From Candidatus Nitrospira allomarina (GTDB taxonomy: Bacteria; Nitrospirota; Nitrospiria; Nitrospirales; UBA8639): 64,000 bases of DNA. The stretch covers positions 186,001-250,000 of the forward strand of contig NZ_CP116967.1 in NCBI RefSeq assembly GCF_032050975.1, read 5' to 3'. Of the stretch, positions 5,316-34,872 are shown in pieces (within the stretch, counting starts at the first letter, position 1; each line of letters begins with the position of its first letter). The notes below the pieces were generated by a model. The model was given only the letters and a program-made list of their open reading frames with translations, was not told the DNA's origin and did no database searches. Position numbers and translations under genes: made by a program.

Positions 5316-8129
5316 ATGTCCTTAAAGAAACCGGTTTCACCTTCCAGCTCTCCCCATGCCGATCTGATCATTGAAGGCGCGCGGCAAAATAACCTCAAAA
5401 ACATTTCGCTCCGTATCCCGCACAACGCCGTCACCGTGGTCACCGGTGTGTCAGGATCCGGGAAATCCTCTTTGGCCTTCGACACCCTGTTTGCGGAAGG
5501 CCAGTGGCGCTATGTGGAATCGCTCTCCTCCTATACGCGCATGTTCCTGGACCGCGTCAAACGGCCTGATGTGGATCGACTCACCAATATTCGTCCCTCA
5601 ATTGCCTTGGAACAAAAAAATCCAATTCGGACCTCGCGCTCCACCGTCGGCACCACCAGCGAAATTTCAGATTATCTCCGCTTGGTGTTCTCCAAAATCG
5701 GACGCTTGACCTGTCCCGACTGCAAGGTGGAAGCCATCGCCCACCACCCCACCGCGGTCGCGCAAGATTTACTCAATCGTTTTCCCAAGGAACGTGCCCT
5801 CGTCTGTTTTCCCAAACCCGCCCCCCATCCTGACGCACTGGAATTTATGAAAACCGCACTCCTCAAGCAAGGCTTCATCCGTATCGTCATCGACCAACAA
5901 CTGATCAACCTCAATACCGATACCTTCCCCTCACCGCTGCCATCGGAATTGTTGATCGTCGTTGATCGCCTGACTTTGGATACGGAATCGCGCAGCCGAT
6001 TGGTCGAAGCCTTGGAATCGGCGTTTCGTGAAAGTGAAGGCCGCGCGAGCGTCATCATCGGGGATAACGAACCCATTGGCTATAGCGCCCATTTGTCGTG
6101 TCCGGGATGCGGCAGGACGTTCCCGCCGCCACGCCCGGTGTCCTTTTCGTTCAATCATCCACTTGGCGCCTGTCCCGAATGCAAAGGGTTCGGCAACATC
6201 TTGCGCTACGACGAACGGTTACTGATTCCCGACGCCGACAAATCCTTACAGGACGGCGCGATCGAACCCTGGACCAAACCATCCAATGTGTGGTGGCAGA
6301 AAGAAATGCTCAAAGCCTTCAAGAAGAAAAACCTCGACCCGACCACACCCTACAACCAGCTCACCCAAGCAGAACAAGACCTGATTTGGAAGGGAGAAGG
6401 AAAGCTCGAGGGCATCGATGATTTTTTTACATATCTAGAAGGCAAACGCTACAAAATGCATGTCCGGGTCTTCTTAAGCCGGTATCGCAGTCCCTCGCCT
6501 TGCACAACCTGCCAGGGAACCCGCTTGCGGCCGGAATCCCTCATGGTCAAAATCTATGAATGCCACATTCACGAGGTATGCGGATGGCCCCTCTCGGATC
6601 TTCAACGATGGCTTCAGAACTTGCCGCTAAGAAAATTTGAGGAGGCGATCGCCAAGGATCTGTTGATAGCCTTGCAAACGAAACTGTCATTTCTTCTGCG
6701 CGTGGGTTTGGACTATCTCACGCTCAACAGGGAAATGCGGACGTTATCCGGAGGCGAAGCTCAGCGTATTCATCTGGCGACACAACTGGGCAGTCAGCTC
6801 ATGGGCACACAATATGTTTTGGATGAACCGACGATCGGCCTCCATCCACGCGACACCGAGTCCATGGGCATGATTTTGCGGGAGTTGGCGGAGCGGGGAA
6901 ACACGGTCATTGTGGTGGAACATGATCCGCAGATTATTCAACAGGCCGATTACATCGTCGAACTGGGACCTCACTCAGGCAATCAAGGCGGAGAGGTCAT
7001 CTGCGCGGCCCCCTACCAATCCTTTCTTAAGCATCCCCAATCGCTCACCGCACAATATTTGCGTGGGGAACGAACCATTCCTTTACCATCCAAACGCGGA
7101 ACAGGAAATGGAAAAGCGCTTCAGTTCACAGGAGTGAACGAACAAAATCTCAAAAATCTCACGGTGAACATTCCCCTCGGCACGCTGGTCTGTATCACGG
7201 GTCCTTCCGGATCGGGAAAAAGCACGTTAGTCGAAGCCACCATCTATGCAGCCCTTGCGCGTTTTTTCAAGGTGGACACTCCTCCGCAACCCGAGCTAGC
7301 AAGCATGACGGGACCTGAACACCTCCGAACCGTCTGCCTCATTGACCAGGAACCCATCGGCAAAACCCCGCGTTCTAATCCCATCACCTACATTAAAGCC
7401 TATGATGAAATCCGGGCCTTATTCGCCCAGTCCCCTGAAGCGCGGGCGCACCGGCTCACGCCCGCGCATTTCTCATTTAACACCGGCAAGGGCCGATGCG
7501 CTCGTTGCCAGGGCAACGGATACGAAAAGCTGGAAATGTATTTCCTGGCGGACCTCTACGTGCCCTGCGCAGACTGTGAAGGCAAACGGTTCAAAGACAA
7601 GATCCTACAAGTCCAAGTCAAAGGGCTTTCCATTCATGATGTGTTAAACCTCACCGTCGATCAAGCGGTAGCCTTCTTCGCCACGTCATGTCCCAAGGTC
7701 CTCAAAGGATTGCGCGTGCTTCAACAGCTTGGACTTGGTTATCTCACACTGGGACAGCCAGCCACGACTCTATCCGGAGGCGAAACCCAACGGCTGAAAA
7801 TCGCCCGGGAATTGACCAACACCCCAAAACGATCAGCCGCCCACTCAGACCACAAAGGTGCCCTCTACATCCTGGACGAACCCACCAGGGGACTGCACCT
7901 TGAAGATATCACGCGCCTGTTAACCGTGTTGAATCAACTGGTGGAGGAGGGCAATACGGTCCTGGTGGTCGAACATCACCTGGACGTCATCAAATACGCG
8001 GATTGGGTCATGGACCTCGGCCCCGGCGGCGGCGAATCCGGCGGCCACATCGTAGCTCAAGGTCCGCCGGAAGACATCGCAGCTAACCCCAACTCCATCA
8101 CGGGAAGATATCTGAAGACTCTGCTTTAA
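5316..8129 (+). CDS. uvrA: Excinuclease ABC subunit UvrA family protein
   Basis: A 937-residue tandem ABC ATPase of the UvrA family, near the normal length. The N-terminal half has Walker A GVSGSGKSS near residue 46, the insertion region with a CPDC pair, a zinc module (CPGC ... CPEC), an LSGGEAQR signature and an LDEPTIGLHPRD Walker B. The C-terminal half has GPSGSGKST, a second zinc module (CARCQGNG ... CADCEGKR), LSGGETQR and LDEPTRGLH. UvrA loads UvrB at DNA damage during nucleotide excision repair. Some sequence differs from canonical UvrA around residues 85-130 (EQKNPIRTSRSTVGT) and in the insertion, so it could be a second UvrA paralogue rather than the housekeeping copy. The symbol is given at family level. 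Confidence 0.85.
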   Translation: MSLKKPVSPSSSPHADLIIEGARQNNLKNISLRIPHNAVTVVTGVSGSGKSSLAFDTLFAEGQWRYVESLSSYTRMFLDRVKRPDVDRLTNIRPSIALEQKNPIRTSRSTVGTTSEISDYLRLVFSKIGRLTCPDCKVEAIAHHPTAVAQDLLNRFPKERALVCFPKPAPHPDALEFMKTALLKQGFIRIVIDQQLINLNTDTFPSPLPSELLIVVDRLTLDTESRSRLVEALESAFRESEGRASVIIGDNEPIGYSAHLSCPGCGRTFPPPRPVSFSFNHPLGACPECKGFGNILRYDERLLIPDADKSLQDGAIEPWTKPSNVWWQKEMLKAFKKKNLDPTTPYNQLTQAEQDLIWKGEGKLEGIDDFFTYLEGKRYKMHVRVFLSRYRSPSPCTTCQGTRLRPESLMVKIYECHIHEVCGWPLSDLQRWLQNLPLRKFEEAIAKDLLIALQTKLSFLLRVGLDYLTLNREMRTLSGGEAQRIHLATQLGSQLMGTQYVLDEPTIGLHPRDTESMGMILRELAERGNTVIVVEHDPQIIQQADYIVELGPHSGNQGGEVICAAPYQSFLKHPQSLTAQYLRGERTIPLPSKRGTGNGKALQFTGVNEQNLKNLTVNIPLGTLVCITGPSGSGKSTLVEATIYAALARFFKVDTPPQPELASMTGPEHLRTVCLIDQEPIGKTPRSNPITYIKAYDEIRALFAQSPEARAHRLTPAHFSFNTGKGRCARCQGNGYEKLEMYFLADLYVPCADCEGKRFKDKILQVQVKGLSIHDVLNLTVDQAVAFFATSCPKVLKGLRVLQQLGLGYLTLGQPATTLSGGETQRLKIARELTNTPKRSAAHSDHKGALYILDEPTRGLHLEDITRLLTVLNQLVEEGNTVLVVEHHLDVIKYADWVMDLGPGGGESGGHIVAQGPPEDIAANPNSITGRYLKTLL

Positions 8130-20166: not shown

Positions 20167-23100
20167 ATGTCTTCCGATACCCCCCAACAAGACATACCTC
20201 CGGTGGCAAAGTCACCACGTTCAAGAAAACGTTTAAAATGGTTTGCCTGGTTAGGCCTGGGGATGTTGGCCCTTCTTCTTTGTGCGGGTCTGTTACTGAC
20301 CTACTGGTTTCCTTCAGACATGGTCCGGCAAGAGCTGGAAATTCGTCTTTCCAAGCTTCTTCAAGGAACAGTCAAAATCCACTCCCTTTCGTTTAATCTG
20401 CTGACCGGCCTTCAAGTCAGTCAGTTGGAATTGACCAAGCCGGGACACACCCCTCTCACACTCGAACACCTGACCTTGGATTACAGCCTTGTGGGACTGC
20501 TGAAGGGCACCTTCACCATCAATGAAATCTCCATCGATCAGGCAGACATATCACTCAATCTGCCTGAACTCACGAAGGCCCCAGCGGAACCACCTCCCCC
20601 ACCATCTTCTGAACCGGCGGCACTTCCCACGCTCCCTGTCTCGATTGATCTGGAAACCCTTAAGATTATCGAGAGCAATATCCGCCTTATGGTAACGCCC
20701 GACCTCACCGTGAACCTCACCCATCTGAATCTCCAGAGTTCGGGGGCCATTTCATCGGATGATGCCCTTCTCAACGGCACGCTGCAGGTTAAGCAAGTCG
20801 CGGTGGCGCTTCAAGGGAAACACATTCAACTGCCGCTGGTCGTGAAGTTTGACACCGCGATTCATCTTCCGACTCAACATCTTGACCTGAAGCAGCTCAC
20901 CATTGAATCGGATCCTGCCCTTCGCCTCACACTTGCCGGAACAATCAACGAATTCTTAACCCAAAAAGCTGTGAATCTTTCTCTTACCGATACGGATCTT
21001 GACCTTGGAAAAATTATGGCTCTCGCCAAAGATTTCGTACCGCCGGAATTTGCCACGGCTTCAATGGGGGGAAATCTGTCTCCCTCATTCACCCTCACCG
21101 GGTCACTTCCCGACTCCGGATTTGAGGGGACCATCCACGCGGGATTAGACGGAAAAAATGTCGAATTGCATCTACCAGGCCACGACCTGACCGTGGGACC
21201 GACAGATCTGGCATTCGCTGCCAAAAGTCTTCAGATCAAGGAGAACGTCCCCTTGATGGGAAACGTCTCGGCGAAACTTTCTATTTATGATTTGGCCTTT
21301 CAAGCCTATGGAATACAAAACTTTGGGTTGAGTCTCCAGAGCGACTACCAGGCCTCCGGACCTTTTTCGGGAAACCTGCAGATCTCCGGCACCACAGGAT
21401 TCCCCGGCGACCTACTTGGCACGCCTTTCACTCTTCCTTTTGCCGTGACCCTCGATACCAGTGGCAATCATCACACCCGTCACATAGAGGTGAAGCATCT
21501 GAACGCAGACCTTAGCCCTTATGCGACCTTGCAGATGAACGGTGTGATTCAACCTCATCCTGCCCCGAAGGATGGCATGGATGCCTCGCTGAAACTTCGT
21601 CTGTCACCAAAGATTAACGCCTTACTCTCCCTCATCCCCAAGGACCGGCTGCAAGGACTTGTTCTCCGGAAAGGATCCGAGCCGGATACCTTTGTGCTGC
21701 ACGCCACCGGAGCACTTCATCCGGATTTCCGCCCCGAGTGGGCAAAAGCGACGGCGGCGCTCAAACTGTCCTCTCTTCAAGCTCAACTGAAACCCTTCGG
21801 TGCAGAAGGCACCATGCACCAACTCACCTTCCTGCTTTCTTCGGGGTATCAGGAAACCAATGGTGCAATTCAGGGAACGGTCGGCTTTTCGTCAAATTTC
21901 TCTGACCTCCATGCGGCTGATACGATGACAATCGGAACCAGCCATGTGATCCTGAAATCTAACTTTCAAGGCCATCTCTCGCCGACCTATCAACCCACGA
22001 GTCTTCGCTCGGAAGATCAGCTCCAGGTCACGCTCGGCAACCTGACCTACCAGGATCCCTCCCTGACGGCCACCCTTCCCTCAATCAGACTGTCCTTAAA
22101 AACTAAGGAAGATGTGTTCAAACAGGATTTTTTACTGGAGAGTCTGCGACTGACCAGCGAAGAAATATTAAATATGGGAATGAAAGCCCGGTATCAGCAG
22201 GGGAACCAACAATTTGACGTAGATCTGCAGCTACCCCTTCTCCACGTCGGGAACCTTCTCCCGCATCTGTCGGGATCACTTATGAAGGGCCTTGACGACA
22301 TCAATCCGAAAGGACGGATCAGTCTGACTCTGCGAGCCGCGGGTAAGGTTCCCCAGGAAGATGATCTCAAGAAATTGACCCTACCCTTGGGAGTCAATGG
22401 AAAACTTACAATGCGGGATATTGAGGGGGCTGTCTCGGGCTATCGGGTTCAGGGAGGCAACGGCACCATGACCATGGCCTATTCGCCACGTGCCACGCCT
22501 CAAACCCAACTCACAACGGATGTCACACTCAATCGGATTCACCTGCCGGATACCCTCCCGATCAGAGAATTAGCCAACACTTCTGTGCACGTGAATCTTT
22601 CATCTCCGGATCTCAATGAAGTCCAGATTGATCCGATCCATGTGACATCAACAGGAATCGACCTTACCATCAAAAGTGCAGTGGTGGGCTTGCGTGAGCT
22701 GTTGTCCTCCACCTCGCCTCGTGGCACTCAATTGGCAAAACTCTTTGCCCAACTGCACACCCGCCTGGCTCTGGATGTGGAGACCTTCCAAGAAGCCTTG
22801 CAACCCTTGGGGATAAAGGGAGACGGCAAGGCCCTGGTCACCCTGTCCATGCTCAAAAAAGAACAAGGCAGCCTGGACGCCTCTGTGGAGATCGGGTCTG
22901 AAACACTCTCTGTGTCTCGGGATGGCACGGAACTCCGTGACATGAACGGTGGGATACAACTCAGAAAATCACTGGAATGGAAACCGGATGGACTCCCGTC
23001 TCCGCCGAAAAAGCCATTTCAACCGTCCGACCGTATTGCCCAGCTCAAATCATTTTCCCGGAAAGGGCAGACCCTCACCATTGATCGTCTTCAGCTCGGG

Positions 23101-23739
23101 CCATTCACGGTCGAAAAGCTCTCCACGAATTTGGCGTTTGAACAACAGTCCCTGAAAATGCAAAATCTTGCCATGAATGTGTTGGGTGGAGGGATTGGGG
23201 GAAATGTCATCATCGCCGCCGAACATCCCTTGCGGCTATCAGCGAATTTTGAAATAGCGAATCTCGATGCTAACCGACTCATTCAGACAGAATCCAAAAT
23301 CAGAGGGGATAGCAACATCGCCGCAACCATTGGACTCACAACCATACTTCAGGAATCCACGGGAGCCGTGGATTTGAGCCGGCTAGAATGCAACCTGCAA
23401 ATTACGCACATCGGAAACGAAGCGCTGGATCGCCTCCTCGTGTTCCTGGACCCGGAGGGAAGCAAACCGACGATTTCTAATGTTCGCTCCCAACTGAAGT
23501 TCGCGAATCCCTCGCGGGTGATGGTGGAAGTGGCCAGAGGGCAATTAAATCTGACGATCCACTTCCAAGGCAGTCTGATCCCCACCTTTCGATTGGAGCG
23601 CATCCCGATCGCCAAAATGAAAAACATTGAAAAACTCACCGCTGCCATTCCCAATTGGGAAGACCTGGCCAACGTGCTGAAATTAATCGGAGCCGAGACC
23701 TATTCGTTCACGCCAGAAGGGGAGATCGTGCTTCAGTAA
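20167..23739 (+). CDS. AsmA-family giant envelope protein
   Basis: A 1190-residue protein with a positively charged N-terminus, one membrane helix at about residues 25-46 (FAWLGLGMLALLLCAGLLLTY), and a long periplasmic part made of repeated beta strands. The start of that part (VRQELEIRLSKLLQGTVKIHSLSFNLLTGLQVSQLEL) is the AsmA N-terminal domain. The end (GGGIGGNVIIAAEHPLRLSANFEIANLDANRLIQ ... GAVDLSRLECNLQI) matches the AsmA C-terminal region. Relatives (AsmA, TamB, YhdP) form bridge-like beta-grooves that carry phospholipids between the membranes, so a lipid-transport role is likely. A Pro-rich stretch near residue 140 (PPPPPSS) is a probable linker. It is not operonic with neighbours. Confidence 0.8.
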   Translation: MSSDTPQQDIPPVAKSPRSRKRLKWFAWLGLGMLALLLCAGLLLTYWFPSDMVRQELEIRLSKLLQGTVKIHSLSFNLLTGLQVSQLELTKPGHTPLTLEHLTLDYSLVGLLKGTFTINEISIDQADISLNLPELTKAPAEPPPPPSSEPAALPTLPVSIDLETLKIIESNIRLMVTPDLTVNLTHLNLQSSGAISSDDALLNGTLQVKQVAVALQGKHIQLPLVVKFDTAIHLPTQHLDLKQLTIESDPALRLTLAGTINEFLTQKAVNLSLTDTDLDLGKIMALAKDFVPPEFATASMGGNLSPSFTLTGSLPDSGFEGTIHAGLDGKNVELHLPGHDLTVGPTDLAFAAKSLQIKENVPLMGNVSAKLSIYDLAFQAYGIQNFGLSLQSDYQASGPFSGNLQISGTTGFPGDLLGTPFTLPFAVTLDTSGNHHTRHIEVKHLNADLSPYATLQMNGVIQPHPAPKDGMDASLKLRLSPKINALLSLIPKDRLQGLVLRKGSEPDTFVLHATGALHPDFRPEWAKATAALKLSSLQAQLKPFGAEGTMHQLTFLLSSGYQETNGAIQGTVGFSSNFSDLHAADTMTIGTSHVILKSNFQGHLSPTYQPTSLRSEDQLQVTLGNLTYQDPSLTATLPSIRLSLKTKEDVFKQDFLLESLRLTSEEILNMGMKARYQQGNQQFDVDLQLPLLHVGNLLPHLSGSLMKGLDDINPKGRISLTLRAAGKVPQEDDLKKLTLPLGVNGKLTMRDIEGAVSGYRVQGGNGTMTMAYSPRATPQTQLTTDVTLNRIHLPDTLPIRELANTSVHVNLSSPDLNEVQIDPIHVTSTGIDLTIKSAVVGLRELLSSTSPRGTQLAKLFAQLHTRLALDVETFQEALQPLGIKGDGKALVTLSMLKKEQGSLDASVEIGSETLSVSRDGTELRDMNGGIQLRKSLEWKPDGLPSPPKKPFQPSDRIAQLKSFSRKGQTLTIDRLQLGPFTVEKLSTNLAFEQQSLKMQNLAMNVLGGGIGGNVIIAAEHPLRLSANFEIANLDANRLIQTESKIRGDSNIAATIGLTTILQESTGAVDLSRLECNLQITHIGNEALDRLLVFLDPEGSKPTISNVRSQLKFANPSRVMVEVARGQLNLTIHFQGSLIPTFRLERIPIAKMKNIEKLTAAIPNWEDLANVLKLIGAETYSFTPEGEIVLQ

Positions 23740-23757
23740 AAGACAAACCTCTTATCT

Positions 23758-24728
23758 TGTCATGCTGAGCTGAAGGCGAAGCAGCTCGCTCAGCCATGGG
23801 CCGGTGGACCTGGGCTCAGATCCTTCGCTTCACTCAGGATGACAAAGCAGAGACACTGAATAATGACGGCCCACATATACGTTGTCATGCTGAGCTGAAG
23901 GCGAAGCATCTCGCTAGGCCATGGCCCGGTTGAGCTGGGCTCAGATCCTTCGTCCGACCCAGGATGACAATGCGAAAGGCTCAGTTAACAGATGAAACAG
24001 TATTATGTGTACATTATGACAAACCAATCCGGCACACTATATACCGGGATCACCAATGATCTCATCCGTCGAATCTATGAACACAGACAGGGACAAGGCG
24101 GTCATTTCACATCAAGATACCGCATCACACGGTTATTGTACTTCGAAGAAACTCGGGATATTCACGCAGCACTCACTCGCGAGAAACAGCTCAAAGGTTG
24201 GACGCGTACAAAGAAGTTGGAATTGATTGTCACGGTCAACCCCAAATGGGAAGATCTTTCCACGGATTGGGATATTTCATAGGTTGTTATGCTGAGCTAG
24301 GCGAAGCAGCTCGCTAAGCCATGGGCCGGTGGACCTGGGCTCAGATCCTTCGCTTCACTCAGGATGACAAAGCAGAGAGCCTGGATAAGGACCGGCCCAC
24401 AATGTTGTCATGCTGAGCTAGGCGAAGCAGCTCGCTAAGCCATGGCCCGGGTGAGCTGGGCACAGATCCTTCGCTCACTCAGGATGACCAAGCCAGGGGA
24501 CTGGATAATGACCGGCCCACATATTCGTTGTCATGCTGAGTCACGCGAAGCATCTCGCCAAACCATGGGCCGGGTGAGCTGGGCACAGATTCTTCGCTTC
24601 GCTCAGAATGACAAAATTGAGGAAAGGACGATCAACGCCCAATCCCGCCGCATTCATTGTTTGTATGTCAGGCTAAGCCAAGGCCCAGCGGAACTGGCAC
24701 AGATCCTTCGCTTTACTCAGGATGACAT
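23758..24728. repeat. Tandem palindromic repeat array (family A), six copies
   Basis: Copies at about 23758-23845, 23882-23970, 24284-24370, 24405-24490, 24528-24614 and a partial one at 24661-24728. Each unit starts TTGTCATGCTGAGC, contains an imperfect central region (GAAGCATCTCGC ... CCATGGGCCGG ... GGGCTCAGATCCTTCGC) and ends CTCAGGATGACAA, so the ends are complementary and the unit can fold as one long hairpin. Neighbouring copies lie about 121-124 bases apart, and the short spacers (ACGGCCCACAT...) are repeated too. Between copies 2 and 3 the spacer is replaced by the GIY-YIG gene. The half-site GGCACAGATCCTTCGC ... GGATGACAAT recurs in the island (41570, 41970, 44725). Confidence 0.9.
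23992..24282 (+). CDS. Single-domain GIY-YIG nuclease (UPF0213-like)
   Basis: A 96-residue protein made only of a GIY-YIG domain. YYVYIMTNQSGTLYTGITNDLIRRIYEH has the two Tyr motifs and the catalytic Arg, and LTREKQLKGWTRTKKLELI carries the metal-binding Glu. Such small nucleases are widespread and mostly uncharacterised; some relatives cut branched or repeat DNA. Its stop codon abuts the next repeat by one base and its start is 21 bases after the previous repeat, so gene and repeats look like a unit. No ribosome binding site is obvious. The repeat association suggests, but does not prove, that the nuclease acts on or spreads with the repeats. Confidence 0.9.
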   Translation: MKQYYVYIMTNQSGTLYTGITNDLIRRIYEHRQGQGGHFTSRYRITRLLYFEETRDIHAALTREKQLKGWTRTKKLELIVTVNPKWEDLSTDWDIS

Positions 24729-24828
24729 GAAACTGGAACAGGATGACCATTTGGAGATTTTTCTTCAGCAGCTTTCAGGAATTTGATAAGATAAAGAAGA
24801 CCCTACCCTCTTTAGGAGCCGATTAGTT

Positions 24829-25449
24829 ATGTCCTATCCCCGAATATCCCCTTTCCCTACTGTGCACACGCTCTTTTTTCGCCCAATCTTCTTGATCTTG
24901 ATGACCCTCCCAGTTGCATTCCTCACCGCGTGTGGAGGTCCGCTGGTGGGTGTCACTGTCGTGGATGAACGCACGGCCTTGGAAAACCAGGTGCTGGGCA
25001 CGTATCAAGAACTTAATCAGCAAGTTATGCTGGTGGCCTCCGTTCGCTATATCGATCCGAAGGGAAAATTGAAACAGACCCAGGAACTTCCTCCAGGGAA
25101 AAAAGACGTTGTGCGTGCCCTCCAACGAGTGTCGTTTAACAAAGATGATCTCAATCGCTATAAATCATTGGGTATTATTGGTGAAAACAATGAAGGTGGT
25201 GTCACCCTCCTGGAGCCGGAAAAAGTCCAACCGGACGATCGAGCGTTTGTGGAAAATCTGATTAAAGAAGAGAATGAGGATCGTCTCGCGATCATGAGCC
25301 GGATCATTGAGACCAACGAGACCCTGACACCCTCAGAATTACCACGAGTCCACAAAATGTTTGCCGCACTCAACCGGGATAAGGCGCTCAAGGGAGAACG
25401 AATCCAAATGGACAATGGGACATGGACTCAAAAAGACGCCACACCCTAA
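24829..25449 (+). CDS. DUF1318-like lipoprotein
   Basis: A 206-residue lipoprotein: a hydrophobic segment ends in FLTAC, a lipobox, and GGPLVGVTVVDERTALENQVLGTYQELNQQVMLVASVRY follows. That segment and the central 'LQRVSFNKDDLNRYKSLGIIGENNEGGVTL' resemble the DUF1318 family of periplasmic lipoproteins. The C-terminal half (NLIKEENEDRLAIMSRIIETNETLTPSELPRVHKMFAALN) is helical. AGGAG lies eleven bases before ATG. The next gene starts inside the last 28 bases of this one, so the two are coupled. Location in the outer or inner membrane leaflet of the periplasm is likely. Confidence 0.75.
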   Translation: MSYPRISPFPTVHTLFFRPIFLILMTLPVAFLTACGGPLVGVTVVDERTALENQVLGTYQELNQQVMLVASVRYIDPKGKLKQTQELPPGKKDVVRALQRVSFNKDDLNRYKSLGIIGENNEGGVTLLEPEKVQPDDRAFVENLIKEENEDRLAIMSRIIETNETLTPSELPRVHKMFAALNRDKALKGERIQMDNGTWTQKDATP

Positions 25450-28400
25450 CTCAAGACTCCAGTTTGCGAGATGGACACCTGTCTCACCCTTCCCAGGAAG
25501 CTCAAGAGAGCACCTCAGGAAGAAAAGAGGGAAGATCGTTTCATTTTCACGAAGCCCTATTCGGCCTGATAGCCTTCACCGGCCTGATCGGATTCCTGTG
25601 CTCCTCCCTACCCGCTCTCGCTGCGACACCTGAACGACTGACCACTCACCCGGCCCTGGATTATCAACCGTCTGTTTCCAAGGATGGACAAACGCTTGCA
25701 TTCGTTTCTACTCGTTCAGGAAATTCGGATATCTGGGTCCAAACCCTCAAGAGTGCCGCCCTCACACTTCCCAGGCAAATGACCACTCACCCGGCCAGCG
25801 ATCAGGAACCGGCCGTGAACCGGGATGGGACCCGACTCTTGTATGTGTCGCATAAGTCCGATCCCCGTGGCGATGTGTACCTCCTGGATCTCATTACCCG
25901 TGAGGAGCAACGACTGACGGATTTAACCAGCGGGGATGGGTCTCCTCAGTGGGATCAAGAAGAACACGGATTTTTCTATCTCAAAAGTGATCCGCTCCAA
26001 AACACTTCCGCCATCTACCGGAAATCTTTCAAAAACCATTCGGAAGAATTGGTCGTGGCCCAAGCCACCAGCTTTTCTGTGAACGGTCAGGGACAGCTCC
26101 TGTATTCCACTGGTGCCCATTTGACCTTATTGGATCTTCAGGACAACAGCTCCACCTCCTTTGACCAGGACAGCCATGCTCTGGATCTCTGGCCTGCCTT
26201 GGACCACAACCCCTCTGACCTCACCACGGATCGTCACCTGGTGTTTACCCGATATGACCGGGACACCAACGATGACGGGCTGATTGACACCGATGATGAA
26301 TCCTCCGTTTGGATGAGACTCTGGGGACCGCAGCAGGCTGAGCTCCCCAACATATATCGGATCACTCCGGCGCACCAATTTCATATTTACCCTGCCGTGT
26401 CCGGGGATTTTCTCTATTACTCCGATCTGAAAGCCGGAGATATTTTTCGGATGGATATCCCGGCGTTTCTCAGGGATTACGTCGACCTCGATCGCGCCAA
26501 ATCGCTGGCCGCCTCCTATCAGGATCACGGGCAATTGGATCTCGCGCTCCTCGTTCTGGAAAACATTTCGCACAATCTGTTGGCACAACAGCCTCCTGAT
26601 GCACGAGCGGAATTTGATTTTTCCCTCGCCGAAGCACAGACACAGGAAGGAAATTTTCCTGCGGCCCGGGAATCTTTGGAGCCCTACACCAGCCAACCGG
26701 GGCGAACCGGCGCATTGGCCCGGATATATACCATCGTCTTGAGAGTCCAGGAGCAGGCACAGGGCATCAGCTCTGCGGCAAGACGCCGGTTAGTCACCAC
26801 CGGCGTGTCCGATTTACTCACCATTGGGAATGAGCACCGGGACATGGATGAGGTATACGGTCAGGCGCTGATTGAAGCCGGACGGCTCTACCTCTTTGCG
26901 GACGATCCTCTCACAGCCTTGGAGTACCTCGTCAAAGTCGAAAATCTGCACAATAAAGAGATTCGAGCCAAGGGTCTTTTCACCAGAGGGGAAGCCTATC
27001 GGATTTTGGGAGACGCTCCCAATGTGATCCGCGTGTTCGTGGATGTCATCCAATTATTTGGCGAACGTTCCTCCTGGGGCAAACGTGCCATTCAACAGGT
27101 TGTGACACTCTCTCAACAGGGTGAAACGGACCGTGAGCGCCTGACGGCCTTAAACAGGATCATTCCCCAGCATCCGGACCTTCCCGTCTTGATCGCCACC
27201 GCCCGCTTAACTATCGCCGATTTGTATCACGAACAGGGAGAACAACTGTCTGCCCTGGAAACTCTGGATTTCATTATCCCGGTTCCCGACCTTCCCAACG
27301 AACTCGTCATCCAGGCCTACCGGAAAAAGGCCGCAATTCTTTCAGAATCGGAACGGTACCAGGAAGCGGCGGATACCTATGCCGCCTTGAGTCAATTTCC
27401 CGGAGAAAATCAGACTGAACTTGAAGGAGCCAAAAGCCTTCTCATTTTACAATTGGTGAAAAAAGCCCTGAAGGACCGGAAGATCGGGGAAACCCGCATC
27501 GCCGCCAAATCCCTGAAACAGCTCATCGACCAATATCCCGAATCCGTGGAAGCCCATCGGGCGTATATTGAAACCAAAGTCATGCTCAAAGACACGGCTG
27601 AGGTCCAGGCCTGGTATACCACCTTAGTCAAAACCCATCCCGATCACGCGGTCTATCAGTATGGCCAGGCCCTGGCGTTGTCCTATGCCGAACCGCCCGA
27701 CCTCCCGTTAGTGATCCGCCTCCTCCAACGTGCCATGAAAAAAGATCCGGCCCTGGGGTATGTCCATCAAACCCTGGGATGGGCCTACGAACAAACCGAA
27801 CGGACCTCCGGCAACAAAGGATACCTTGAGAAGGCCGAGCAGGAGTATCGCATTGCGTTGGAGATCAACGATGCCGGCCGCTTTCCCGACGTGGAATCGC
27901 AACTACTCTTGAATTTAGGCAATACCTACCTGGCTCTCTCGAATGCCCGCGAAGCCTATCGACATTACCGGCAGCGTGAGGAGCAATTCGCTCCGTCCGG
28001 CGAGACCATCACCGAATTGCTCTATCGCAAAAATTATGGAGAAGCCTGTTTTAAGGCAGGACGCACCGAAGAATCGTTGGTCCAATATCAGTTGGCCTTA
28101 CGGAACGTGCCTCCCGAGCAACCCAACCTGCAAGCCGAAATCCTGGAACGCATAGGCTTGTCCCATCAGGACATCGGACAATATGCCAAAGCCATTGAGG
28201 CATTTTCCCGGGCCTTGGTCCTGAACCGTGACTTAGGACAGGAACAAAATGTCACATTGCTCCAGAGAAATATCGGGGTCAACCTGTTTAACCTGAGCCG
28301 CGCCAGCGAAACCGGTGGACGAGAGGAACTCAAACAGGCTTTGGGCAGTTACTTTACCAGCCTGGACCACCTGACCACAGGCGGCGGCAAAACGCTTTCC

Positions 28401-31400
28401 AAGGGACCAGGCTTGTTCAATGTGAATGTGGCCCTCAATGAAGGCGGGTCTCAAGCGGCCAGCGGGTTCGATCAAATGGGCGAACAAAAGCTCATGTTCA
28501 GTTATATCGCCAGCACCTATGAGCAATTGGACGAACCCGGTCCCGCTCGAGATTTTTATCGTAAAAAACTCGCGCTCCTCAATCAGGTGGCGCCGGCTAC
28601 CCAGGATGCGGCAGCTCTGACAGAAAAAGCCATTGTCCTGAACCGGCTGGGCGTGCTTTCCCACCAATTAGATGAACCTGAGCAGGCGATGGAATCCTTT
28701 CGCCAATCCTTGAATTACACCCGGACGTTGAATATCCCGTTCGGGACGGGCGTCAACATCTATAATCTTTCGACATTAGCCGTCGAAAGCCTCTTGCAAG
28801 GCCACACCCCGGACCACAGCCTTGTTGAGGCCATTACCTCTGGGATTCAGGATCTCCAACAACGAAACTATGAAGACCGCAATCTCTTCTTCACCCTCAC
28901 CAACACCGCCATGCTCCTGTCCCTTCTTCCCGACCCATCGCCGGACCAGCGCCTCAAGCCGGCTGATGCCGTCCAGCGCATGCATGAACAGTTCACAACC
29001 AGGACACTTCCGTGGTCGTATTATCAAAAGGCCGACTCGCTCCTGCACAAGCCAACCCTATTCTCAGATTCCGAACGTCTGCCCGCTCAATTTCTGGTGA
29101 AGTTGAACCAGGCCGAATTGGCACGAACATTGGATGAGTCTCAGGTCTATCGCCGGATTCAGGACGACTTGCTCAAACTGGTGGAAGACCGGCAAGCGCC
29201 CAATAGCTGGTTATGGTATCTGTCTCAGGCCGAAGCCACCGCTGATCCCCTGACGCACAAGACGCTTCTCACCCAATCCGTTGAGGAAGTCCTTCGTTTT
29301 CCCGCGCAAACCGACCCCCCCACGGGGCAGACCAACACCTGGCCTGCATACGAACGTCTGATTCAGCTCTCGGTTGACCAATTGATTGAAGCAGGCCGGG
29401 CCGACGACGCCTTTACCGTGGCGGAGCAACTGAGCATTCGACAAATGACCAGCGCCGTCTATGAAGCACTGGGAGAGGACGTCTTCCTCAAAGGATTGGG
29501 AGACTATGAACCGGAGTTACAATCCCTGCTCGGAGAACTTCGGCAAGCTAGAAATCACGGAAACGTCGCGGCCATTGAGGAACTGGCTCCTGCCCTTCAG
29601 GACACGCTCTACGCCCTGTTTGAAGAATATCCCTGGGCCACCGCGTCCTTCTGGGCCTATCCTCCGACCAGGGACCTGATATTTTTGGGAGTTGACGCGC
29701 AACACCCCTACCTGAAAATTCTCAAAGGAAGGCAAGGCTATCATGGCTTTGTTCATAACGGAGATACACTCCATTACAGCCCACTGGTGGTCACCGAAAA
29801 AGGGGTCACGGGGGATGAAGAATTTCACAAGCGGCTCAAGCAATCCGCCTCTGCCTATGTGGCGATGCCGCAGGAACTGGAATCCACCCTCCCTTCAATG
29901 GGACTCGATCAGATACCCCTCACGTGGGTCAGCAACTTCTATGATTTCCTGAATGGCTATCATCAGCGCAGCCTCTTTTTCTCTCACATCAGCACCCCAA
30001 GCACATTTCTCCCCTCCACGCCTTCGAATGCGGGAGAAATACCATTTGTGCACCGGCAATTTAGCGGGGTCGATGCACACGATCATCCGCTGGCCACCCA
30101 TACCAACATTGCCGCGTTTCTCAAAAATCCGGATACCTTCGCCTTTGAAGTACAGAAAGCTCAGAATGTTCGGGAATTTGTTTCCGTGCTCGATTTTGCC
30201 GGCAGCCAACACCATTCGATCCTGCTCTTCGGCGGTATCCCCTCCTCGTCGCCTTCTCCATGGGTGCTGATATCCTCTCTCCTGCGCGCCGGATTTCCTC
30301 ATGTCATTGTGAGCCGGACACCGCTCGACTCCCAAACCGCCGCCAGGTTTCTAAATCAATATCTCACGCATCTCAATACGCTTCCTCCCGATGAAGCCGT
30401 CATGGCCGCATCGAAGGATCTCTGGGGATCGGAGACGGGGAAATACCCCTTCCGCCATTACGGATTTGCCGGCATGGGTCCGGACGAACGTCAGGAATAT
30501 GCCGCCTCTATCTACGACCAGGAAGTGGCAGAAGCCATTCACGCATTTGAGACCAAAGACTTTCCCGCTTCTTTACGGCACATCGAGCATGCACTCGCCC
30601 TCATCGAGCATGCCAAGAAACGACAGGACTTCAAAGACCTCACCACCCTGGCCGTCGAAACCGCGTTTGAAGTCAGCGATTATGAAAAGGGCCTGTTCTT
30701 TCAACAGAAACTTCTGGATGCGCTCACGCCGGAGACTCCGGCCAACGAACGGGCCGAGGCGGAATATCGCCTGGGCATCCTGCATTCCCGTCTCGAACAT
30801 TTTGACCTCGCCGTACAACACCTCGAACAGGCCAATCAGATCTGGGAACAAGGCGAACAGCTTGATCGACTCGCGGAAGGCATGGCGACATTGGGCATTG
30901 TGCGTGAAAATATGGGTGCCTATACGGAAGCTCTGGACCAATTCAACCAGTCGTTTTCCCTGTATCAGGAAATCGGGGAAATGGGGCACACGGCCTTTCA
31001 ATACCGTCGAATCGGTCGTATTTATTACCTTCGATTGGGCCGGTACGAGAAAGCCCGTGAAAACTTTCTCGCGGCTCTCAAGCTGTATCAGGAACAAGGC
31101 GATCCCCAGGGAGAAGCCGAAGCGCTGTATGAAGTGGGATTGACCTATGAAAAAGTCGGTCTGTTCGACCAGGCGGCGGAACGCTACCACCAGGCCCTCT
31201 CGATTGGCAAAGAACTGGATGACCCCAAGCTCCTCACGACGGGCGATCTCTACCTCGCCAATGTGGCCTGGTTCCAGGGGAACTATCAAACGGCCTTTCA
31301 ACTCTTAACCCAGGCCGACAAAAAAGCCGAACAGGCCAATGACCCGCAATTACGCATTATGGTGAAAAATACCCGCGGGCTGATTTACTGGACACTCAAT

Positions 31401-33329
31401 GACACCGACAAAGGACTGGTCCATTTGCATGACGCGGTCACGCTGAGCCGGTCTTCCAATATTCAAACCGAGTTGGCCTCTTCGCTGAACAATCTTGGCT
31501 TGATCTACCGGCAACGGGGCGACCATGCCACCGCCCTGGACTATTTTCAGCAGGCGAAAACGCTTGACGAATCCCTGAAGAGCCAATGGGGTTTGGGCTA
31601 CGACCATCGGAATATCGGCATCTCCTTACTGGCCCTGGGACAGTTGGATGAGGCCGAAGGGCATTTCATCAAAGCCGAGCAGATCAGCGCCGAGATCAAC
31701 AATGTCATCAATTGGGTCAAAGCCTTGCTGGAACTGGGCAACGTCAATAAAGCGCTGCTGCGACCCCAACAGGCCCTTGGCTATTACGAGCGGGCGCATG
31801 AGATCTCCCAGCGATACGGGATCAAAGAAGTAGAATGGCGGGCCGCAGCGGGCAAGGCCACGCTGTTGCGGGAGGAAGGAAAGCTCCCGGACGCCTTAAC
31901 CTGGTTTACCAAAGGGGTCGAGGTGGTGGAAGGCATGCGGGCCGCGCTCAAAATCGATGAACTCCGCAATAGTTTCCAAACGAACAAACTGGATCTGTAC
32001 CAGGACATCATCACCCTGCTCATCACGATGGACCGGACCGATGACGCCTTTAATTTCTTAGAACGCTCCCGATCCAGAAGTTTTATCGACCTGCTGGGTA
32101 ACCAAAAGCTTTCGTTCAAAAATGAAGGTGATCAGGAAACCTGGACCAAAATCAACAGGCTGGCTTCCACAGTGGATTCACTCAAATCGGAACTGGGATC
32201 GTATGATGAGCCTCCTGCCGACCTTCAGGAACGGTATCGCAATACGAAGGCCCTGTATGAAGAAGCCATCCTGGAAGTCAAACAGCAGAATCCGGCCCTC
32301 AGTAGTTTTGTGGCTGTGGACCCGCTTAATCTGGAGGGAGTGCAACAGCTCCTGGCCCCTAGGGTGGGACTGCTCACCTACTTTTTGACAAAAGACCAGC
32401 TCTACCTGTGGCTGATTACCAAGGAGCGAACTCTCTTTAAAACGGTGTCAGCGAAAGAGGAAGATCTCACCCGCTTAGTGACCCGCTATAGGCAACTTGT
32501 TCAGCATCTGGAACCAGTTGATGATGAATTACAGAAACTCTATGGGTCTCTGATTCAACCGGTTGAAGGCGACATCGCAAACCTGGAGTACCTGGGAATT
32601 ATTCCCGATGGACCGTTACACTTTCTCTCCTTCGCGGCACTCAAACACGGTCCGGCCTATCTGGTGGATGAGATCCCGCTTTTCTACGCACCCTCGGCTA
32701 GTGTCTTCCAATTCACCTTTGCCAAACGTCAAGCCGTCAAAAATGACAAAGTCCTTGCGATCGGAAATCCGGATTTGGGAAATTTCAATTACGATCTCCC
32801 GCTGGCCGAACTGGAGGCCGAAAGCATCAAATGGAATTATCCCAACATGGATATTCTCACCGGAACAAAAGCCACCAAAGAATGGGTGGTGAAGAATATC
32901 TCCCGATATGGCATCATCCATTTAGCGGCTCACGGGGAATTCGATGAAGGCAATCCGCTATTATCCTCACTCTGGCTGGCTTCAGAAAACCCCGAAAACC
33001 GCCGACTGACCGTTAAGGAGATTTTCGGTTTGGAATTGAACGCGGATCTGGTGACGTTAAGCGCCTGCCAAACGGGCCTGGGTAAACTGGAAGCCGGAGA
33101 GCTTATCGGCCTGAACCGCGCCTTTGTCTATGCCGGCACGCATGCCCTGGTGTCCGCCCTGTGGCGGGTGGATGACCTTTCCACCTCGGTGCTCATGAAA
33201 CATTTTTACCGGAATTACGTCACGGCGAATAAAGCCAGAAGTTTGCGGCAAGCGCAACTCATCGTCAAAAAAGACTTCCCTCACCCGTCGTATTGGGCCG
33301 GGTTTAGTTTGATCGGAGACTATCAATAG
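25422..33329 (+). CDS. Exported TolB-propeller/TPR/CHAT giant protein
   Basis: A 2635-residue protein. Residues about 45-68 are a hydrophobic export signal ending ALA-ATP. Residues 69-350 hold TolB/WD40-like propeller repeats (QPSVSKDGQTLAFVSTRSGNSDIW). Residues 355-1400 and 1700-2180 are TPR arrays (for example QPNLQAEILERIGLSHQDIG; SLNNLGLIYRQRGDHATALDY). Residues about 1400-1690 resemble a degenerate CHAT domain. Residues 2295-2635 are a full CHAT caspase-like domain with His2504 in HLAAHGEF and Cys2549 in LSACQTGLG, then GELIGLNRAFVYAGTHALVSALW. CHAT enzymes are cysteine proteases of clan CD. The start overlaps the preceding lipoprotein gene in another frame. SH3 and M48 genes follow on the same strand. 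Substrate unknown. Confidence 0.88.
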   Translation: MDSKRRHTLTQDSSLRDGHLSHPSQEAQESTSGRKEGRSFHFHEALFGLIAFTGLIGFLCSSLPALAATPERLTTHPALDYQPSVSKDGQTLAFVSTRSGNSDIWVQTLKSAALTLPRQMTTHPASDQEPAVNRDGTRLLYVSHKSDPRGDVYLLDLITREEQRLTDLTSGDGSPQWDQEEHGFFYLKSDPLQNTSAIYRKSFKNHSEELVVAQATSFSVNGQGQLLYSTGAHLTLLDLQDNSSTSFDQDSHALDLWPALDHNPSDLTTDRHLVFTRYDRDTNDDGLIDTDDESSVWMRLWGPQQAELPNIYRITPAHQFHIYPAVSGDFLYYSDLKAGDIFRMDIPAFLRDYVDLDRAKSLAASYQDHGQLDLALLVLENISHNLLAQQPPDARAEFDFSLAEAQTQEGNFPAARESLEPYTSQPGRTGALARIYTIVLRVQEQAQGISSAARRRLVTTGVSDLLTIGNEHRDMDEVYGQALIEAGRLYLFADDPLTALEYLVKVENLHNKEIRAKGLFTRGEAYRILGDAPNVIRVFVDVIQLFGERSSWGKRAIQQVVTLSQQGETDRERLTALNRIIPQHPDLPVLIATARLTIADLYHEQGEQLSALETLDFIIPVPDLPNELVIQAYRKKAAILSESERYQEAADTYAALSQFPGENQTELEGAKSLLILQLVKKALKDRKIGETRIAAKSLKQLIDQYPESVEAHRAYIETKVMLKDTAEVQAWYTTLVKTHPDHAVYQYGQALALSYAEPPDLPLVIRLLQRAMKKDPALGYVHQTLGWAYEQTERTSGNKGYLEKAEQEYRIALEINDAGRFPDVESQLLLNLGNTYLALSNAREAYRHYRQREEQFAPSGETITELLYRKNYGEACFKAGRTEESLVQYQLALRNVPPEQPNLQAEILERIGLSHQDIGQYAKAIEAFSRALVLNRDLGQEQNVTLLQRNIGVNLFNLSRASETGGREELKQALGSYFTSLDHLTTGGGKTLSKGPGLFNVNVALNEGGSQAASGFDQMGEQKLMFSYIASTYEQLDEPGPARDFYRKKLALLNQVAPATQDAAALTEKAIVLNRLGVLSHQLDEPEQAMESFRQSLNYTRTLNIPFGTGVNIYNLSTLAVESLLQGHTPDHSLVEAITSGIQDLQQRNYEDRNLFFTLTNTAMLLSLLPDPSPDQRLKPADAVQRMHEQFTTRTLPWSYYQKADSLLHKPTLFSDSERLPAQFLVKLNQAELARTLDESQVYRRIQDDLLKLVEDRQAPNSWLWYLSQAEATADPLTHKTLLTQSVEEVLRFPAQTDPPTGQTNTWPAYERLIQLSVDQLIEAGRADDAFTVAEQLSIRQMTSAVYEALGEDVFLKGLGDYEPELQSLLGELRQARNHGNVAAIEELAPALQDTLYALFEEYPWATASFWAYPPTRDLIFLGVDAQHPYLKILKGRQGYHGFVHNGDTLHYSPLVVTEKGVTGDEEFHKRLKQSASAYVAMPQELESTLPSMGLDQIPLTWVSNFYDFLNGYHQRSLFFSHISTPSTFLPSTPSNAGEIPFVHRQFSGVDAHDHPLATHTNIAAFLKNPDTFAFEVQKAQNVREFVSVLDFAGSQHHSILLFGGIPSSSPSPWVLISSLLRAGFPHVIVSRTPLDSQTAARFLNQYLTHLNTLPPDEAVMAASKDLWGSETGKYPFRHYGFAGMGPDERQEYAASIYDQEVAEAIHAFETKDFPASLRHIEHALALIEHAKKRQDFKDLTTLAVETAFEVSDYEKGLFFQQKLLDALTPETPANERAEAEYRLGILHSRLEHFDLAVQHLEQANQIWEQGEQLDRLAEGMATLGIVRENMGAYTEALDQFNQSFSLYQEIGEMGHTAFQYRRIGRIYYLRLGRYEKARENFLAALKLYQEQGDPQGEAEALYEVGLTYEKVGLFDQAAERYHQALSIGKELDDPKLLTTGDLYLANVAWFQGNYQTAFQLLTQADKKAEQANDPQLRIMVKNTRGLIYWTLNDTDKGLVHLHDAVTLSRSSNIQTELASSLNNLGLIYRQRGDHATALDYFQQAKTLDESLKSQWGLGYDHRNIGISLLALGQLDEAEGHFIKAEQISAEINNVINWVKALLELGNVNKALLRPQQALGYYERAHEISQRYGIKEVEWRAAAGKATLLREEGKLPDALTWFTKGVEVVEGMRAALKIDELRNSFQTNKLDLYQDIITLLITMDRTDDAFNFLERSRSRSFIDLLGNQKLSFKNEGDQETWTKINRLASTVDSLKSELGSYDEPPADLQERYRNTKALYEEAILEVKQQNPALSSFVAVDPLNLEGVQQLLAPRVGLLTYFLTKDQLYLWLITKERTLFKTVSAKEEDLTRLVTRYRQLVQHLEPVDDELQKLYGSLIQPVEGDIANLEYLGIIPDGPLHFLSFAALKHGPAYLVDEIPLFYAPSASVFQFTFAKRQAVKNDKVLAIGNPDLGNFNYDLPLAELEAESIKWNYPNMDILTGTKATKEWVVKNISRYGIIHLAAHGEFDEGNPLLSSLWLASENPENRRLTVKEIFGLELNADLVTLSACQTGLGKLEAGELIGLNRAFVYAGTHALVSALWRVDDLSTSVLMKHFYRNYVTANKARSLRQAQLIVKKDFPHPSYWAGFSLIGDYQ

Positions 33330-33448
33330 TGGGAGGGTTCGCTCTCCCTTGCCGCACTCATAATAGAACGGTGATTAAAACAAGGTGAAAACCTGAATAT
33401 TCAAGTGTCCTTCAATCACGCCCTAGTCTCACGCTGAAAGGGGGCCTC

Positions 33449-33976
33449 ATGCCAGATCGAATCGCTCGGGTTATCTTTGGAATCGTCCTTATCACAGTAG
33501 CCGCCTGGATGTTTCCCTCATCCAATTGGGCGGCCACCCTCTACGCCAAGCAGGATGACGTGAAAGTCAATGCGGAGAAATCTCCGACCTCCGCAGTCAT
33601 CGCCACCCTGGCGCTGGGAGATGCCGTGACAGTCTTGTCCGAAGAAGGTCGATTGGCCAAAGTCAAAACCGCCACAGGAAAAACCGGTTGGGTGTTTAAA
33701 TTCCGGCTGGCAGAAGAGAAGCCTTCCACCGGTGGTGGCGGGCTTGGCCTCTCCGGCCTCACGGGACGGAATACCATTGCCGCGCGCGAGTCACGGGCAG
33801 GAGGCAGCATTCGAGGCCTCAAGGAATCCACCGAACAATATGCCAAAGCCAAAAATATCAAACAGGAAGACCGTGATGCGGTAGATCGCATGGATGCCTT
33901 TTCCATTGCCCCGGATGAATTGATGCAGTTTAAAAAAGCTGGAAACTTAGGCGAATTTTCGGGAGGTGTCCAATGA
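33449..33976 (+). CDS. Exported SH3-domain protein
   Basis: A 175-residue protein with a signal segment (VIFGIVLITVAAWMF ... NWAA) and a bacterial SH3 (SH3b) domain at about residues 30-92: TLYAKQDDVKVNAEKSPTSAVIATLALGDAVTVLSEEG, then KVKTATGKTGWVFKFRL. A Gly-rich linker and a charged helical C-terminus follow (TEQYAKAKNIKQEDRDAVDRMDAF). SH3b domains bind cell-wall peptides or partner proteins. AAAGGGGG is a good ribosome binding site. Its TGA overlaps the ATG of the M48 gene, so the two are translated together; the protein may act as an adaptor or inhibitor of the protease, which is inference. Confidence 0.85.
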   Translation: MPDRIARVIFGIVLITVAAWMFPSSNWAATLYAKQDDVKVNAEKSPTSAVIATLALGDAVTVLSEEGRLAKVKTATGKTGWVFKFRLAEEKPSTGGGGLGLSGLTGRNTIAARESRAGGSIRGLKESTEQYAKAKNIKQEDRDAVDRMDAFSIAPDELMQFKKAGNLGEFSGGVQ

Positions 33977-34872
33977 AGACCGGCAAAATTTTGGCGAGTG
34001 TCAGCATTCTGAGTCTCCTCTTATCTAGCATGGGATGCGGGGGATCACAATCCGGGCAATCGTCGCAACAAACGGATCTCATTGGAGGTCTCGGAGCGGC
34101 CCTTGGCATCAAACAACAGAAAATCGATCTTCTGAAAAAAGGCGTCGGCGTCGTTCAAGCGCTGGAGCCTATCGGAGAAGAAGAGGAAATCACGTTGGGG
34201 GAAGCGGTCGCGGTGGAAGCCTTTAGCCGTTTCGGCGGTGAATATTCGAATCCAGCCTGGACACGCTATATCAATCTGGTGGGAAAGACGGTGGCGGAAG
34301 TCTCGGACCGGCCAACCTTGAACTACCATTTCGCCATTCTTAACAGTCAGGAACAGAATGCCTTTGCCGCTCCCGGTGGCTATATCTTCATCACCGTCGG
34401 CCTCCTGAAGACTCTGACCAATGAAGCCGAACTAGCGGGCGTGTTGGCCCATGAGATTGCGCATGTCACCCAGAAACACATGCTGGACGCCATTCGGCGG
34501 GGAGCCCTGATGGGGAGTGTCTCGGAACTGACTCTCACCGCCATGAAACAGGATCCGGCGATGTTCTCCAGCGTCATCGACGAAATGACCGACCTCTTGT
34601 TCACGAAAGGTCTGGACAAAGACAAAGAATTTGAAGCCGATGTCGTGGGCGTCGAGTATGCCTATCGGGCAGGATATAACCCGCAAGGACTGGAAAATTA
34701 TCTGCAGACATTGGCCAAAGAAGAAGGGCATGTGGAGTCCAAATTTTTCACCACGCATCCTTCCACATCCTTGCGCATTTCCAAAATCGATACGCTCTTA
34801 GAAGATTATTCCGACATCAAAAATCTGCCGTTCCTCGCGGAGCGCTTTCACCAATACGTGAAGGCGGGGTAA
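33973..34872 (+). CDS. M48 family metalloprotease lipoprotein
   Basis: A 299-residue lipoprotein with lipobox LSSMGC. The catalytic domain has HEIAH at residues 160-164 (His160, Glu161, His164) and the third zinc ligand in KEFEADVVGVEYAYRAGYNP. The upstream AAPGGYIFITVGLL and downstream FFTTHPSTSLRISKI are typical of the BepA/LoiP group of periplasmic M48 proteases that check outer-membrane protein assembly. It lacks the TPR tail of BepA, but the TPR-rich CHAT protein lies two genes upstream. It is the last gene of the probable operon. Confidence 0.92.
   Translation: MKTGKILASVSILSLLLSSMGCGGSQSGQSSQQTDLIGGLGAALGIKQQKIDLLKKGVGVVQALEPIGEEEEITLGEAVAVEAFSRFGGEYSNPAWTRYINLVGKTVAEVSDRPTLNYHFAILNSQEQNAFAAPGGYIFITVGLLKTLTNEAELAGVLAHEIAHVTQKHMLDAIRRGALMGSVSELTLTAMKQDPAMFSSVIDEMTDLLFTKGLDKDKEFEADVVGVEYAYRAGYNPQGLENYLQTLAKEEGHVESKFFTTHPSTSLRISKIDTLLEDYSDIKNLPFLAERFHQYVKAG

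Follow-up and report, generated by a model that had tools for sequence, protein, structure and literature searches.

The locus described here lies on the forward strand of a 64,000-nucleotide stretch of the Candidatus Nitrospira allomarina genome, called the window, and all coordinates are positions within it. There are five genes in the operon, all on the same strand: an AsmA-like protein, our candidate bridge protein (20167-23739; 1190 aa), an outer-membrane type lipoprotein with a DUF1318 domain (24829-25449; 206 aa), a giant exported TPR/CHAT protein (25422-33329; 2635 aa), an exported SH3b protein (33449-33976; 175 aa) and an exported M48 metalloprotease (33973-34872; 299 aa). The lipoprotein and giant genes overlap by 28 bases, and the SH3 and M48 genes overlap in the tetranucleotide ATGA. 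An earlier description made from the sequence alone (the sequence-only reading) had presented the last four as a four-gene operon. All four open reading frames (ORFs) were confirmed with the coordinates, lengths, strand and overlaps that it gave, and Pfam agrees with its domain labels (DUF1318, TolB-like, TPR, CHAT, SH3b and M48). The four genes are co-directional as described; the operon is longer, its first gene, AsmA-like, lying upstream of the coordinates considered at that time. Judged from gene order in other genomes, the four genes belong to a conserved cell-envelope module of five genes, present in two phyla.

The collinear arrangement AsmA, DUF1318 lipoprotein, giant, SH3 and M48, on one strand and with short or overlapping junctions, is found in 15 genomes, namely ten or more Nitrospirales, Candidatus Nitrotoga BS and one metagenome-assembled genome of the Chromatiaceae. 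Co-occurrence of the four genes was the test that the sequence-only reading had set for itself, and their order is conserved in many genomes. A Magnetococcales contig carries the first three genes of the module and then ends; in Nitrotoga M5 four of the genes stand together and AsmA is found elsewhere. The giant has a scattered distribution, being present in 29 of 235 Nitrospirales genomes and, as two clear cases, among 120 genomes of the Nitrotoga family.

In a sample of 398 Pseudomonadota genomes, the lipoprotein was detected in 12 (threshold, E below 1e-70), and in 10 of these 12 the giant lies next to it or nearby (L096, L101, L190-L197). The AsmA-lipoprotein-giant core is kept in Pseudomonadota. 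The SH3-M48 pair stands ahead of AsmA in genomes G397 and G457, in G429, where the giant is 8.5 kb further along on the opposite strand, and in G477, where a contig break falls inside AsmA; it lies 14 kb downstream in G465 and on another contig in G425. SH3 was found in seven of the 12 lipoprotein-bearing Pseudomonadota and, at comparable strength, in none of 27 controls (Fisher P about 6e-5, computed with 26 controls and with the genomes treated as unrelated). The order is permuted and the company is kept, which argues that all five genes act together and that the link is functional, beyond inherited gene order. On this comparison, the trio AsmA-lipoprotein-giant varies least from phylum to phylum, and SH3-M48 is the part that changes place.

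Transfer of the module took place between Nitrospirales and Nitrotoga, nitrite oxidisers that are not related to each other. For M5, contamination was rejected as an explanation of the Nitrotoga copy, since the locus adjoins surE, pcm, nlpD, rimO and rpsB, a proteobacterial-type stretch; the second strain, BS, has its own 86% identical copy.

The AlphaFold 2 model of the AsmA-like protein (predicted local distance difference test, pLDDT, 79) consists of one transmembrane helix (residues 19-47) followed by a continuous beta-groove. An N-terminal membrane helix and a repeated beta-groove, the features that define repeating-beta-groove proteins, are thus both present in the model. Its structural matches include the bridge-like lipid transporter LPD-3 (Z 10.4, root-mean-square deviation (rmsd) 5.9 over 299 residues), the N-terminus of Vps13 (Z 9.0, rmsd 4.8 over 188 residues) and, in Foldseek, TamB. 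Pfam reports AsmA at 6e-4, and the position of the gene ahead of the DUF1318 gene is conserved. The modelled protein resembles bridge-like lipid-transfer proteins and is probably lipid-carrying.

A different cargo may be considered at this point. GspN, an AsmA-like beta-taco protein, is required for surface lipoproteins (PMC12802150), and the protein of the module could similarly carry lipoproteins or other hydrophobic cargo to the cell surface, the proteases then processing this cargo. The N-terminal part matches TIGR04411 GspN at 5e-10, below the cut-off of that model, and there is a T2SSN trace in the Nitrotoga homologue. However, GspN is much shorter and belongs to type II secretion, whereas no type II secretion gene is present in the conserved block, the spanning length of 1190 aa suits a full bridge better, and the partner is a YdbL-type lipoprotein, from a family known from a lipid bridge. 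We consider GspN-like transport unlikely.

The lipoprotein has an LTAC lipobox, and its Cys35 is invariant in an alignment of 18 homologues. A conserved N-terminal segment precedes the C-terminal DUF1318 domain (residues 105-202; Pfam 1.3e-9, over the cut-off). DUF1318 is the YdbL family, and the profile of the lipoprotein matches canonical YdbL in hhalign with E 3e-11 and a probability of 97%; its sole PDB match is also YdbL (28oj, E 0.095). YdbL is the chaperone of the Escherichia coli YdbH-YnbE bridge and probably keeps YnbE from polymerising. In E. coli, ydbH, ynbE and ydbL form one locus, which on a plasmid compensates for the loss of other AsmA-type transporters (PMC8593681), and YdbH together with the lipoprotein YnbE brings phospholipid to the outer membrane (PMC11784454).

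In the module, as in this system, a protein of the AsmA clan with a single membrane helix at its N-terminus is encoded together with an outer-membrane-type lipoprotein and with a YdbL (DUF1318) domain. It differs in that its AsmA-like protein is not PF11739; the match with a canonical YdbH profile is confined to a stretch of 142 columns (probability 88%). It also differs in having no YnbE. In most genera there is no room for a separate YnbE (PF13617), the AsmA and DUF1318 ORFs abutting or overlapping; the canonical YnbE of relatives does score with PF13617. Because an invariant anchor cysteine and a conserved N-terminal segment stand ahead of the YdbL domain, the lipoprotein may combine the jobs of YnbE (anchor) and YdbL (assembly control) in one polypeptide. 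The third difference is the addition of the giant CHAT protein, SH3 and M48.

Canonical ydbH-ynbE-ydbL operons are found in Nitrospirales relatives (L151-L155, in G031, G008, G049, G023 and G022), and in at least G031 and G008 they coexist with the new module. In the closed window genome, a whole-genome search in which the E. coli positive control scored revealed no PF11739 (YdbH), and there is no second DUF1318 protein. A mutual exclusion of the two systems was dropped, the window genome having only the new module and G031 and G008 having both. The presence of canonical operons in relatives, while the closed window genome has neither YdbH nor a second DUF1318, is counted in favour of a lipid bridge.

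The giant is composed, in order, of a signal peptide, a TolB-type beta-propeller (residues about 70-345; 25629-26456), a first TPR array (about 350-1289; 26469-29288), a CHAT-fold domain without catalytic residues (about 1290-1710; 29289-30551), a second TPR array (about 1711-2160; 30552-31901) and an active C-terminal CHAT domain (2369-2633; 32526-33320). The sequence-only reading had correctly recognized two TPR arrays and overlooked the domain between them. Its proposal of export agrees with the presence, at residues 46-68, of a hydrophobic signal segment of AxA-like type. In nearly all homologues whose N-terminus is intact, a similar segment precedes the propeller, and export is therefore well supported by sequence. 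The propeller matches Pfam PD40 (1.6e-14), NCBIfam TolB (7e-14) and solved TolB structures in the PDB (5e-17). There are many Pfam TPR matches, those of the second array being to TPR_12, TPR_1 and TPR_MalT; the first array is the most specific region of the protein and served as the query for the scan of named genomes. The giants of Nitrotoga M5 and BS (L083 and L086) are about 81% identical to that of the window.

The C-terminal CHAT domain is the most conserved part of the giant (Pfam 4.7e-66, 223 bits), and His2504 (32931-32933) and Cys2549 (33066-33068) are kept in all 23 giants compared. A PDB sequence search with the CHAT region gave no match, though the Pfam match is clear. The model of residues 1290-1710 is confident (pLDDT 90, predicted template modelling score 0.91) and matches the TPR-CHAT protein of Craspase (Z 17.3, rmsd 3.7 over 290 residues), separase (Z 17.2) and the anti-sigma factor DdvA (Z 16.1). 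We regard it as a second CHAT fold. Since the homologue alignment has no cysteine among the invariant columns of this region, the modelled domain is taken to be catalytically dead. Its CHAT identity was settled solely by structure prediction; sequence comparison alone did not reveal it, and a profile comparison with the active CHAT domain was not significant (probabilities of 4% and 32% in two runs).

Like the TPR-CHAT proteases Csx29 (of Craspase) and the HetF type, the giant has TPRs followed by CHAT with a His/Cys dyad and, in addition to the active domain, a caspase-like one that is non-catalytic. Unlike them, it is exported, 2600 aa long, preceded by a TolB-type propeller and equipped with a second full TPR and dead CHAT unit, and it has no Cas or RNA partner. 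The Csx29 model scores 30 bits against the giant (cut-off 300), and there are no cas genes in the conserved block. CHAT proteases do occur in Craspase and SAVED-CHAT systems, and the patchy distribution with transfer between phyla would suit a phage-defence or programmed cell death system; but PADLOC gave generic TPR models only, with no match to a defence effector, and all parts of the module have export signals or are membrane proteins. A defence role is very improbable.

DdvA, a transmembrane anti-sigma factor (PDB 8rot, 8rw5), shows that a CHAT-like fold can belong to an envelope protein. With the resemblance of the dead domain to it, and with the cleavage of an anti-sigma-like inhibitor by the CHAT domain of Csx29 (PMC10028731), the giant could be imagined as an envelope-stress sensor that monitors the state of the outer membrane and cuts a membrane regulator, as in DegS/RseA or with DdvA itself. 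However, the conserved block contains no sigma or anti-sigma gene and the giant has no predicted cytoplasmic domain, so that we give such a sensor little credence.

An exported CHAT protein had been thought unusual. This does not hold within the group: shorter TPR-CHAT proteins of 782, 802 and 824 aa, from the window genome and two relatives, all three start with signal-peptide-like segments, the 782-aa protein being that of the window genome. Outside the window, this genome codes for two more CHAT proteins (L216 and L217; C1:502800-506500 and 438000-447500), the 782-aa protein being one of them. A variant locus of G404 (L203, 1600-10440) carries a TPR-CHAT ORF of 787 codons, a DUF1318 lipoprotein and an ORF of 1967 codons weakly similar to the giant; it looks as if the giant were split over two genes.

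The SH3 protein matches Pfam SH3_3 (8e-7) and has an invariant GGSIRGLKE motif. Its C-terminal tail (about residues 136-173) resembles residues 86-123 of the lipoprotein in a direct hhalign comparison (E 1.7e-4, probability 49%). This likeness is a possible docking motif; if real, both proteins may bind the same partner. The M48 protein (Pfam M48, 9e-32) has HEIAH at residue 160 and EFEAD at residue 219; HE[IV]AH is present in 14 of 14 M48 sequences and E[FY]EAD in all those long enough to cover the motif. With the CHAT dyad also conserved, the two protease types of the sequence-only reading are both upheld. The best PDB matches of M48 are 3c37 (8e-31) and BepA (3e-19). It shares with BepA, LoiP and 3c37, proteins of the outer-membrane compartment, an exported M48 core with HExxH and EFEAD. 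The M48 domain is the only domain matched in the 299-aa protein, which, in contrast to BepA, lacks a C-terminal TPR half; it differs also in being paired with SH3b wherever examined and tied to AsmA and the giant. The M48 gene is directly behind the SH3 gene in every pair examined.

The SH3-M48 pair can also stand by itself: in other families of Nitrospirales (L036-L039) neither AsmA, the lipoprotein nor the giant is alongside. This and the proximity of M48 to 3c37 and to BepA, a protease of outer-membrane assembly, would fit a pair of proteases in charge of general protein quality control in the periplasm, next to which AsmA lies for reasons of expression only. However, the most constant unit across phyla is the one formed by AsmA, the lipoprotein and the giant, not the pair of SH3 and M48, and we regard this explanation as improbable. 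The proposal of periplasmic proteolysis or envelope quality control made from the sequence alone is retained as far as envelope proteases are concerned; with the AsmA-like first gene included, the proteolysis is read as attached to an intermembrane transport bridge and no longer as a general periplasmic activity.

An insertion separates the AsmA-like and lipoprotein genes of the window (23740-24828, forward strand) and lies outside the module. It contains a GIY-YIG ORF (23992-24282, forward strand; Pfam GIY-YIG 2e-16), around which there are several copies of a repeat of ~100 bases (TCATGCTGAG...CTCAGGATGACA). An ORF at 24442-24786 was rejected as a gene; it consists of translated repeats. In the genus of the window genome the gap is made of repeats, plus the GIY-YIG gene in some members including this one, and in other genera the flanking ORFs abut or overlap. 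The GIY-YIG gene is missing from G010, G008, G005, G024 and G031. Because it is absent from G010 and in other genera, the gene and repeats together resemble a mobile unit. Scans for promoters and terminators gave results at chance level. Elsewhere in the window (5316-8129), an ORF of 937 aa was judged by eye from the sequence to be UvrA-like.

With moderate confidence, we read the module as a bridge of the AsmA, repeating-beta-groove kind that runs from the inner to the outer membrane, most likely carries phospholipid and has dedicated proteases attached to it. It is supported by the collinearity, the kept company, the matches of the AsmA model, the YdbL-type domain and the invariant CHAT dyad. 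Several observations weigh against it. Many top structural matches of the AsmA-like model are outer-membrane barrels, so that a beta-groove is supported by the model and the closest relative is not singled out. The YdbH family PF11739 has no match in the AsmA-like protein of the window or in three family-spanning homologues, and other AsmA-clan families are matched weakly. That the cargo would be lipid is suggested by fold and company, and a GspN-related fold can serve lipoprotein transport (PMC12802150). Finally, G493 has AsmA-lipoprotein with no giant nearby, G866 has lipoprotein-giant with no AsmA nearby, and G020 has no AsmA upstream.

In the proposed bridge, the AsmA-like protein would be anchored in the inner membrane by its N-terminal helix and would cross the periplasm as a hydrophobic beta-groove, a modelled fold along which lipid may be transported. 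Its far end would meet the outer-membrane lipoprotein. The giant, secreted to the periplasm, would dock on the bridge via its propeller, TPR superhelices and dead CHAT domain, the proteins forming a complex, and its C-terminal CHAT domain would cleave a client upon assembly, blockage or damage of the bridge. The SH3 protein may bring M48 to the same site, where misassembled or cleaved parts would be cleared. The most likely role of the module is the building, controlling or clearing of an intermembrane lipid bridge by limited proteolysis. More tentatively, and less likely than not, the giant, separase-like with its dead and active CHAT domains, might itself be a working part of the bridge, one that detects when the bridge is assembled or loaded and then, by limited proteolysis, releases or remodels it.

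The combination of a bridge-shaped AsmA-like protein and its lipoprotein partner with a giant secreted, caspase-like CHAT protein and M48 was not found described in the literature searched; by kind, the module is an AsmA-type bridge in a variant form, and we found no description of its protease part. The route of phospholipid to the outer membrane and the control of AsmA-type bridges are a recent open question in envelope biology. Here, a probable AsmA-type bridge and two proteases are joined in a compact module that can be transferred and that Nitrospirales and Nitrotoga, unrelated groups of nitrite oxidisers, have in common. This yields a concrete, testable hypothesis on the control or repair of such bridges and offers a possible function for a family of giant exported CHAT proteins. 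If the giant is indeed a working part of the bridge, this would mean that the passage of lipid between two membranes is controlled by proteolysis, in a previously undescribed machine.

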